From NCBI GenBank assembly GCA_017860615.1, contig JAGDMU010000013.1, positions 1 through 64,000 on the forward strand: a stretch of 64,000 nt of DNA. Reading direction: 5' to 3'. Below are positions 30,947 through 49,890 of the stretch, in pieces (the first letter of the stretch is position 1; the number at the start of each line of letters is the position of its first letter). Position numbers and translations under genes: made by a program. The notes under the pieces were generated by a model. That model saw only the letters and a list, made by a program, of their open reading frames with translations, was not told where the DNA came from and did not search any database. This stretch comes from Pseudomonadota bacterium. GTDB lineage: Bacteria > Campylobacterota > Campylobacteria > Campylobacterales > Sulfurospirillaceae.

Positions 30947-30973
30947 AATATTCCTTTGGTTCAATTTTAAAAT

Positions 30974-31048
30974 ACGGTTTTCAAGCAAAGCTCAAAAACT
31001 CACACTTGCGCCACTAGGCTCTAAAGCTTGCCTCTTTCGAGGTAGAAA
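30974..31048 (-). repeat. Copy A of a structured dispersed repeat, between ilvE and the SPFH gene
   Basis: Read on the minus strand, this 75-base segment begins two bases after the ilvE stop and matches the lpxB-greA gap (49780-49852) over its whole length, about three quarters identical by eye. A 14-base identical core, GAGGCAAGCTTTAG, and the end AAAACCGT are shared. It forms a small hairpin CCTC-GAAA-GAGG and a second nine-pair hairpin TTTTTGAGC-TTT-GCTTGAAAA with two G-U pairs. In copy B the second stem is TTTTAGGC-TTT-GCCTAAAA, so both sides changed together. Confidence 0.75.
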
Positions 31049-31049
31049 T

Positions 31050-31964
31050 TTAGATATAGGTTAAGAGATGTTTATATTTTGGGTTGCGTCCATAAACAAC
31101 ATCAAAGTATGCGTCTTGAAGTTGTTTGGTTATAGGTCCTCGTTTACCATCGCCGATGATGTAATTGTCAATATCTTTGATAGGTGTTACTTCTGCTGCT
31201 GTACCTGTAAAGAAAGACTCATCTGCAATATAAGCCTCATCACGTGTGATACGTCTGCGCTCGATAGGAATACCCGCTTCACGTGCAAGATCTAAAACGG
31301 TTGCTTGCGTGATACTCTCAAGTGATGTGTCATTTGGAGGGGTAATTAAAACGCCATTTCTCACGATAAAGAAACACTCGCCACTGCCTTCTGCAATAAA
31401 ACCATCATCATCGAGAAGTAACGCTTCTTCATAGCCTGCTTCAAGTGCTTCGTATTTTGCCATTTGTGAGTTAAGGTAGTTTGCAGCAGCTTTGGCTTTA
31501 CCCATAGTGGAACATACAGGGTTTCTCGTAAATGAAGAGATTTTAACGCGAATGCCGTTTTCTAAACCTTCATCACCGAGGTAACTACCCCACTGCCATG
31601 CCGCAATCGCTGTATTGACGGGTGCTTTAACGTGGTTCAGTCCCATAATGCCGTATCCTAGATAGATAAGAGGTCTAATGTAAACGTTTGATGTAAAGTT
31701 ATTTGATTTGAGTACTTCAATGTGCGCAGCTTCAAGTTCTTCAAGTGAATAGGTTGGTTTAATCCGTGTAATTTTGGCAGAATTGAGTAAGCGTTTGGTG
31801 TGCTCTCTCAGTTTGAAAATTGCCAAACCATTCTCAGTCATATAGGCACGAGTTCCTTCAAAAACACCATTGCCATAGTGAAGTGTATGGGTCAAAATAT
31901 GTATTTTTGCATCATCCCATGCAACGAGTTTGCCGTCCATCCAAATGTATTTTGCTTTATCCAT
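31050..31964 (-). CDS. ilvE: Branched-chain amino-acid aminotransferase
   Basis: Fold-type IV PLP enzyme of 304 residues that makes valine, leucine and isoleucine from their keto acids. It shows THTLHYGNGVFEGTRAY near 25, the PLP-lysine region GKAKAAANYLNSQ near 155, and LLDDDGFIAEGSGECFFIV near 185. The ATG is preceded by AAGGTAG. Promoter expected in the 120-base gap shared with the divergent aldehyde dehydrogenase. Confidence 0.95.
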   Translation of the reverse strand: MDKAKYIWMDGKLVAWDDAKIHILTHTLHYGNGVFEGTRAYMTENGLAIFKLREHTKRLLNSAKITRIKPTYSLEELEAAHIEVLKSNNFTSNVYIRPLIYLGYGIMGLNHVKAPVNTAIAAWQWGSYLGDEGLENGIRVKISSFTRNPVCSTMGKAKAAANYLNSQMAKYEALEAGYEEALLLDDDGFIAEGSGECFFIVRNGVLITPPNDTSLESITQATVLDLAREAGIPIERRRITRDEAYIADESFFTGTAAEVTPIKDIDNYIIGDGKRGPITKQLQDAYFDVVYGRNPKYKHLLTYI

Positions 31965-48720: not shown

Positions 48721-49752
48721 TTGAAATTACTTGTTTCCGCCCTAGAACCATCCGCCAATTTGCACTTAGAACCTATTTTAAATGCGCTAGAGCAGTGTGA
48801 AATTTATGGCATTTTTGATGAGCGTTTTGGAAAACCTTTGATGCCCAGTCGTGCTTTTTCGATTATGGGATTTTTAGATGCATTACCTAAAATTCGTAAA
48901 GCCAAAAAGGCAATTAAAATAATGGCACGGATGAGTTTTTTTGTCGATAAAGTTTTATTGATCGATTCTCCAGCGTTTAATATCCCCTTGGCAAAAGCGA
49001 TCAAGACCATTAACCCGAATGTTGAAATTGTCTATTATATCTTACCGCAAGTGTGGGCATGGAAACCAAAACGTGTAGCAAAAGTAGAAAAGTATTGCGA
49101 TGTATTGGCTTCTATACTACCTTTTGAGCAAAACTTTTATACTAAAGCAACCTATGTAGGACATCCACTTTTAGATGAGATACCTCTTTTTAAACTCAGA
49201 GCGGATGAAACGGGTGTGATAGCTTTTTTACCAGGAAGTCGCAAAAGTGAAATTAGAAGTCTTCTGCCGATTTACAAAGAGCTTGCTTCCAAGATAGAAG
49301 CTAAAGAAAAGCTTTTGGTTATCCCTTCACATTATAATTATCGTGAAATTGCGGAGATTTATGGCGATATACATGACTTTAAAATCTGTCGAGATACCTA
49401 TGAAGCGTTTGAAAAAAGTGAATTTGCCTTTGTCTGTTCAGGAACAGCCACGCTTGAAGCTGCACTTGTGGGAGTGCCTTTTGTACTGGCATATAAAGCA
49501 AAAGCGATTGATTATTGGATTGCAAGGCAGTTTGTGAAACTGAAACATGTAGGTCTTGCCAATCTTCTGTTTGATTTTGAAAAGATGGAGCCTTTGCATC
49601 AAGAGTTTTTACAAGAAGAAGTAACGGTTGATAATTTACTTCAAGCCTATGAAACGATGGATAAAGAGGCATTCTTTAACCATGCCAAAAAACTTCGCTC
49701 TTTGCTAGGACACGGTAGTCAAGAGGCAATGATAAGCATAATGAAGGTATAA
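48721..49752 (+). CDS. lpxB: Lipid-A-disaccharide synthase
   Basis: Glycosyltransferase that joins UDP-diacylglucosamine to lipid X. The family signals ALEPSANLHL, LIDSPAFNIPLAKAI near 80, YYILPQVWAWKPKR near 105, FLPGSRKSEIRSL near 167, and CSGTATLEAALVGVPFVLAYKAK near 240 are complete. 343 residues. The start is a TTG at 48721, with GAGGAAAA at a good distance; no in-frame ATG gives the family N-terminus. Confidence 0.94.
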   Translation: MKLLVSALEPSANLHLEPILNALEQCEIYGIFDERFGKPLMPSRAFSIMGFLDALPKIRKAKKAIKIMARMSFFVDKVLLIDSPAFNIPLAKAIKTINPNVEIVYYILPQVWAWKPKRVAKVEKYCDVLASILPFEQNFYTKATYVGHPLLDEIPLFKLRADETGVIAFLPGSRKSEIRSLLPIYKELASKIEAKEKLLVIPSHYNYREIAEIYGDIHDFKICRDTYEAFEKSEFAFVCSGTATLEAALVGVPFVLAYKAKAIDYWIARQFVKLKHVGLANLLFDFEKMEPLHQEFLQEEVTVDNLLQAYETMDKEAFFNHAKKLRSLLGHGSQEAMISIMKV

Positions 49753-49756
49753 TTGA

Positions 49757-49784
49757 AGTTCTTACTAAATTGTAAGAACTTTCT
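49757..49784 (+). terminator. Terminator-like hairpin after lpxB
   Basis: AGTTCTTAC (49757-49765) pairs perfectly with GTAAGAACT (49772-49780), loop TAAATT, followed by TTCT. The left arm can instead pair with TTAGTAAGAA at 49852-49861 (ten pairs), so two exclusive structures are possible. Confidence 0.55.
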
Positions 49785-49852
49785 GCCTCAAAGGAGGCAA
49801 GCTTTAGCGTCATAGCGGCTAGCGTAGGCTTTTAGGCTTTGCCTAAAACCGT
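49780..49852 (+). repeat. Copy B of a structured dispersed repeat, between lpxB and greA
   Basis: Matches 30974-31048 (minus strand). It contains TGCCTC-AAAG-GAGGCA (49784-49799) and TTTTAGGC-TTT-GCCTAAAA (49830-49848), both perfect stems. In both copies it lies downstream of one gene and upstream, in sense orientation, of the next. The flanking TTCTTACTAA (49759-49768) and TTAGTAAGAA (49852-49861) give this copy a ten-base outer inverted repeat that copy A lacks. Confidence 0.75.
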
Positions 49853-49890
49853 TAGTAAGAATTTAAAGATAGAAGAATAAGGAGATAACC

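Follow-up and report, generated by a model that had tools for sequence, protein, structure and literature searches.

Two structured repeats in the ilvE-SPFH and lpxB-greA gaps

The window, i.e. the whole 64-kb stretch of DNA analysed here, contains two copies of a small repeat element, both located in gaps between genes. Copy 1 lies directly after ilvE (stop at 31050) and before an SPFH gene, copy 2 directly after lpxB (stop at 49752) and before greA, both being in sense orientation to the downstream gene as given in a preliminary description of this DNA. We recovered both segments where this description had placed them, at 30974-31048 on the minus strand and at 49780-49852 on the plus strand. 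Their end-to-end match is real, although the hand count of 58 out of 76 columns has to be corrected to 53 identical columns over a 75-nt stretch in a MAFFT alignment, which also returned the identical core of 14 bases (GAGGCAAGCTTTAG). The covariance model R1, the seed of which comprises 41 diverse copies mostly from other genomes and includes neither window copy, detects copy 2 with 77.8 bits (E 1.3e-17; 49780-49857, plus) and copy 1 with 54.8 bits (E 6.6e-12; 30969-31048, minus), and reveals no third convincing copy within the window. The features are as follows:

30969..31048, minus strand: type A element, copy 1, partly decayed, in the ilvE-SPFH gap (R1)
31030..31043, minus strand: copy 1 hairpin H1, ACCTC-GAAA-GAGGC, first pair A.C (sequence, model alignment)
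31021..31029, minus strand: copy 1 conserved single-stranded motif AAGCTTTAG (sequence, R1)
31003..31020, minus strand: copy 1 H2 region, degenerate (R1)
30974..30999, minus strand: copy 1 H3 hairpin with closing CGT; GTAG before H3 degenerate, TGTGA (sequence, R1, folding)
49780..49857, plus strand: type A element, copy 2, intact, in the lpxB-greA gap (R1)
49757..49780, plus strand: H0 palindrome AGTTCTTACTAAATTGTAAGAACT, directly adjacent to copy 2 at its 5' border and part of the filled site (missing along with the element in empty sites)
49785..49798, plus strand: copy 2 hairpin H1, GCCTC-AAAG-GAGGC (sequence, R1)
49799..49807, plus strand: copy 2 conserved motif AAGCTTTAG (sequence)
49808..49821, plus strand: copy 2 H2 hairpin, its loop C pairing with G at 49822 in a pseudoknot-like, covarying manner (mutual information, pair counts)
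49822..49827, plus strand: copy 2 GCGTAG tag at the foot of H3 (sequence, tail matches)
49828..49852, plus strand: copy 2 H3 hairpin with closing CGT (sequence, R1)

The decay of copy 1 affects the first H1 pair and the RCGTAG motif, the latter reading GTGTGA. Folding of the single copies only mildly beats that of shuffled sequences (z -1.2 and -1.5), so that the evidence for structure comes from comparing copies and not from energy.

Anatomy and fold of type A elements

The conserved unit comprises about 80 nt and three hairpins in the order H1, WAGCUUYAG, H2 (including a pseudoknot pair that covaries), RCGTAG and H3, the consensus being T-TCTGCCTC-n4-GAGGC-WAGCTTYAG-YGCC-nnAGY-GGC-TA-RCG-TAG-H3-CGT-KYAAAA. 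The 5' border is sharp, near-complete conservation dropping to background within two bases, and none of the 19 nt upstream of it is conserved, so there is no conserved promoter. A T-run after H3 is absent, as are terminal inverted repeats, the 5' TTCTGCC and the 3' CGT(T/G)YAAA not being inverted repeats. CGTAG, located at the hairpin foot, is unpaired and nearly invariant in unselected copies of the window's genome (G000), and is present in both types of the element described below.

The arms of H1 hardly vary, changes in H2 are compensated, and H3, a stem of 9-10 bp, is nearly free in sequence and still paired. Across 41 diverse copies 97.8% of the cells are paired, double changes occur at 12 of the 20 pairs, and the covariation score reaches 0.563 compared to at most 0.179 in slid controls. 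The preliminary description had noticed that H3 of the two window copies differs on both sides and stays paired (GAGC/GCTT vs. AGGC/GCCT), which is correct, and had concluded selection on RNA structure. Across the family the stems do stay paired through double changes; as drawn from two copies this conclusion is weak, because the H3 stem can swap between copies as a block. Mutual information flags the H3 pairs and one additional pair, formed by the final base in the loop of H2 and the R of RCGTAG, which is C-G in 85 and T-A in 27 of 117 copies and is thus pseudoknot-like.

Within H3, G.T pairs outnumber A.C pairs by 155 to 41, and they do so in antisense copies (40:21) as well as in sense copies (63:10), showing that the folded strand is the element's own plus strand. 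The difference between both orientations (p 0.007) makes a secondary effect of transcription direction on the H3 pairs possible. Folding as single-stranded DNA accounts for the strand asymmetry as well as folding as RNA does.

Palindromes of the form TTCTTGCA-n-TGCAAGAA abut the 5' border in L016, L062, L069, L172, L175 and L177 and in the window (49757-49780), and some copies have GAGTTCTGCAAGAACTC after their 3' end; these sequences possibly represent a separate family of repeats or a target that is preferred. The palindrome TTTACATGTAAA is found just upstream of the Sulfurospirillum copies L044, L049, L051, L068, L091, L227 and L228 and also elsewhere in gaps. In antisense, an open frame (..LAAKALKLAS..; L074, L075) runs through the element, which can falsely lengthen predictions of neighbouring genes.

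Extent of the family

The two occurrences given in the preliminary description are far below the actual number, BLASTN finding 22-27 places in the window's genome. The further copies it had suggested to look for in related genomes are present, with 6-41 BLASTN matches per genome in 24 of 24 genomes of the genus. The distribution is patchy: R1 is matched in 72 of 397 Campylobacteria genomes, belonging to 10 of 68 genera and to five families including the window's own, and there is no match in 7 genomes that represent three sister genera within the same family. Scanning named genomes with a pattern yielded at least 115 stretches, and the matches listed with organism-naming titles are all from Campylobacterota, i.e. 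Sulfurospirillum, Sulfuricurvum, Sulfurimonas and related MAGs, the family thus extending beyond Sulfurospirillum. A plasmid collection gave zero matches, and the pattern scan of IMG/VR returned a single contig (IMGVR_UViG_3300042114_000139), the copy of which adjoins thiE-like and flagellin-like genes with an integrase-like gene about 2 kb away, for which reason it is probably host sequence bordering a prophage.

Tandem arrays differ between genomes, with three copies at 123-bp spacing in G004 (L351 1826-2149) and two in G005, and local copy number therefore changes; further arrays are found at L356 844-1109 (G394) and at L088. No recent burst of identical copies was seen.

In line with the preliminary description, which did not recognise a described RNA family, no Rfam 15 family was matched at gathering or relaxed thresholds. 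Searches of the open literature found no description in these genera, with the reservation that the H3 hairpin may have been sighted in part among the GTAG families in Figure 1 of PMC3733652, which include an epsilonproteobacterium (Sulfurovum). The family is apparently undescribed in these genera and new to Rfam.

Type B elements carry a different head

The R1 search of G006 and G007 gave a second cluster of weak matches of constant length, which represents type B with the sequence AAAGCACCAAAGGTGCGTGGGCnnTCTGCCGAAGAnAACCCAGTGTTAACGTAG-H3-CGTGTCAA. Its head consists of two hairpins, one formed by GCACC/GGTGC and the other having the constant loop GCCGA and compensating arms, double changes being present at 15 of 27 proposed pairs, and the pseudoknot-like pair covaries independently of type A (U-A 15, C-G 5). 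Since type B differs in its 5' part and keeps the series H2-pseudoknot-GTAG-H3, these modules form a common tail on alternative heads. There are 32 exact tail matches in G000 and none for the reversed control, and among the 30 classified matches each head is found on about half. Type B is present in 73 of 397 genomes, largely those containing type A; its loci include L426-L445 and L446-L475 (G000, e.g. C2:4268-4353), and there are about 20 copies per Sulfurospirillum genome.

Position and orientation relative to genes

The copies are extragenic and abut stop codons. Based on the gene context delivered by a crude ORF caller, 159 copies were classified as co-directional sense (67), co-directional antisense (50), convergent (33) or divergent (9); the split into sense and antisense shows no departure from 1:1 (p 0.14), and convergent gaps are preferred over divergent ones (p 0.0003). 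The 536 neighbour proteins are ordinary, diverse and unrelated. Sense orientation before a downstream gene holds for both window copies without being a rule, and the element is no leader RNA for SPFH or greA: a sense leader or riboswitch is rejected in view of about 43% of the co-directional copies being antisense, the many copies in convergent gaps and the unrelated neighbours, and it is also opposed by the lack of conservation upstream of the 5' border. The positions match the distribution published for GTAG REPs, which lie beside stop codons in co-directional or convergent gaps (PMC3733652), and not that of leader elements.

Gain, loss and exchange at orthologous sites

Comparing G004 with G005, four sites are filled in one genome and empty in the other. 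At the SPFH site, 21 comparable genomes show seven full copies, two remnants and 12 clean absences, orthologous copies being present in G001, G002, G004, G005, G009 and G014, and the pattern needs at least seven changes on the tree of the flanking DNA. As several species have common 3' flanks, this suggests either a single old insertion that was lost repeatedly or recombination. A loop inversion (GCAAAGC/GCTTTGC) distinguishes G009 from G002 at this site. The greA site is full only in G000 and G008, is a remnant in G010 and empty in most others; the H0 palindrome abutting the element belongs to some of the inserts. Losses may outnumber insertions, since filled and empty alleles are not cleanly polarised. 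The filled/empty comparisons, covering few sites with drifting flanks, gave no convincing or consistent target-site duplication. At one orthologous site (L373/L393; G004:300991, G005:279221) the whole H3 stem is swapped, the flanks differing by 2.3%, which points to conversion between copies, and differences between paralogues therefore do not always reflect point-by-point compensation.

Constraint after insertion

Where kept, the element diverges 2-4 times slower than adjacent intergenic DNA and third codon positions. For 19 sites of G004 and G005, excluding L373/L393, divergence is 1.1% in the element, 4.6% at codon position 3, 3.1% in the remaining gap sequence and 0.6% at codon positions 1+2, for 38 further orthologous pairs the values are 6.9% (element), 22.3% (codon position 3), 13.5% (intergenic) and 3.0% (codon positions 1+2), and for the 25 pairs not detected through an exact pattern 5.3, 19.2, 9.6 and 2.5% in the same order, these rates being lowered by ascertainment, which required a recognisable copy in either genome of a pair. 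Changes are free in the H1 loop (12.8%), the H1 arms, WAGCUUYAG and RCGTAG are held (3.8-4.7%), and both orientations are under constraint. Between orthologues H3 shows seven compensated doubles, 16 single changes keeping the pairing, 13 single changes breaking or making a pair and five other doubles. One pair (L227/L399) has 0 changes in 80 positions despite 37% divergence at codon position 3.

Search for a mobilising enzyme

G000 encodes a single Y1 transposase of about 252 aa (L026 3440-4290; G000:C26:72547-72873 region), the gene of which lies beside a gyrA-like gene and is flanked by GGGGTCAGGGCTAAACTTTT inverted repeats of the GGGGTCAGG type. PF01797 genes are present in 11 of 11 sampled genomes of the genus, mostly encoding about 252 aa. 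Of 31 PF01797 loci, few of them belonging to element-bearing genomes, none had an element copy at a distance of up to about 1.5 kb. Among the 238 genomes outside the genus a PF01797 match is present in 14 of 24 element-bearing vs. 44 of 214 element-free genomes, an association with p 1.8e-4 if phylogeny is ignored. We rejected the Y1 transposase as partner based on its own unrelated inverted repeats, no copy lying alongside and its absence from 10 of the 24 element-bearing genomes. An autonomous version between inverted pairs of copies was likewise rejected, only ordinary host genes and no transposase being located there; nor was a transposase recognised by eye among the recurrent families of the 536 neighbour proteins.

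Interpretation and alternatives

The observed family, its fold, modularity, position, presence or absence at orthologous sites and constraint after insertion are best explained by a model according to which these are REP-like, non-autonomous repeats whose plus strand folds, being spread by a putative trans-acting system and partly retained by selection; we assign this a probability of roughly 0.55. The unit would be the folded plus strand of the element of about 80 nt, composed of a 5' head, either H1 with WAGCUUYAG (type A) or two other hairpins (type B), and the common tail of H2, a 2-bp pseudoknot, RCGTAG and H3. A putative trans-acting enzyme would recognise this tail as single-stranded DNA and copy or move the element in either orientation into AT-rich gaps beside stop codons. 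In transcribed gaps the hairpins are probably either inert or of slight use as structure at mRNA ends or between them, and a sufficient number of copies may be useful for selection to hold them. We favour the REP-like reading because of the patchy spread, the positions resembling those of GTAG REPs, the GTAG at the hairpin foot, the filled and empty sites, the strand asymmetry, the common tail of two subfamilies largely found in the same genomes, and the constraint. Against it speaks that no transposase is linked to any copy examined, that 10 of the 24 element-bearing genomes outside the genus lack a PF01797 match, that the inverted repeats of the Y1 gene in G000 are unrelated, that a recent burst of identical copies is missing and that losses may outnumber insertions, and plain selfish DNA is opposed by conservation of whole copies being stronger than expected. 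That the elements constitute a new class of mobile elements, with two heads and a common folded tail served by one trans-acting system encoded away from the copies examined, and with copies domesticated at gene ends in many Campylobacterota, is a less likely, tentative extension of the REP-like reading.

An alternative that we consider rather unlikely sees the repeats as gene copies, the loci giving a functional RNA, either a trans-acting small RNA or a cis-acting mRNA element. This would account for paired stems with double changes, the pseudoknot-like covariation and the invariant single-stranded motif, for orthologous sites evolving slower than their flanks with a free H1 loop (12.8%) and motifs held at about 4.5%, and for the mild sense excess and the additional A.C pairs in antisense copies (p 0.007). 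It is at odds with the 43% antisense share (bias p 0.14) and the 33 convergent copies, the absence of a conserved promoter upstream of the border, the ordinary and diverse neighbours and the fact that close relatives often lack the site.

Dispersal by duplication of a double-stranded DNA site for a host protein, such as a nucleoid, replication or segregation factor, is improbable. Such a site could be dispersed in both orientations and carry short conserved motifs, but constraint tracks single-strand pairing with G.T exceeding A.C (155:41), the H3 stem is free in sequence if paired, unlike a sequence-specific double-stranded site, and the pair covariation largely refutes it. We judge RNA-mediated dispersal, in which a structured transcript is copied back by a reverse transcriptase, to be of similarly low probability: the RNA-like fold, pseudoknot, G.U preference and the lack of terminal inverted repeats and of a linked transposase would fit, but a poly-A or primer signature is missing. 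Chance resemblance or ordinary terminators, for which H3 as a stem-loop downstream of genes might be taken, are refuted by hundreds of copies, by 32 exact tails vs. 0 in the reversed control, by the missing T-run after H3 and by model E-values down to 1e-20.

Comparison with known systems

For Campylobacterota, this is a large family of structured repeats combining modular heads and a common tail, presence or absence between close species and constraint after insertion. With this combination one can test directly if REP-type repeats are selfish or retained because of a function in mRNA, and if a mobilising enzyme other than a linked RAYT exists. It also urges caution, as covariation among paralogues can arise by block exchange of stems.

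The element shares covarying stems with the structured RNAs of Rfam 15, none of which matches, and differs from MITEs in having neither terminal inverted repeats nor a consistent target-site duplication. Regarding TIRYTs, i.e. TIR-flanked Y1 transposases, the GGGGTCAGG repeats of the Y1 gene in G000 fit the GGGGWSAS motif given in PMC3733652; these repeats have nothing obvious in common with the element, and no copy lies beside the Y1 gene. Like BOX of Streptococcus pneumoniae, the element is small, modular and intergenic with predicted stem-loops, a low transposition rate and a patchy distribution between strains, whereas the sequences are unrelated and BOX is described with terminal inverted repeats and a proposed IS mobilisation (PMC3049150), the former being absent here. 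In contrast to REPs it occurs in tens and not hundreds of copies, in contrast to REPINs inverted pairs are not the rule, and in contrast to RAYT (TnpA_REP) systems no RAYT flanked by the element was found among the loci examined. TnpA_REP in these systems cleaves single-stranded REP DNA at CT or CA. GTAG REPs are 20-40 nt long with one palindrome, whereas the GTAG hairpin makes up only the 3' third of our element of about 80 nt, the longer conserved module of which contains H1, H2 and the pseudoknot-like pair. As in GTAG REPs, REPINs and BIMEs, however, the stem-loop has the GTAG at its foot, contains G.T pairs and varies in its stem with compensation (PMC8266576, PMC3116915, PMC3733652), and as in GTAG REPs the copies are extragenic and adjacent to stop codons, occur as singletons as well as in tandem clusters and show strand asymmetry.
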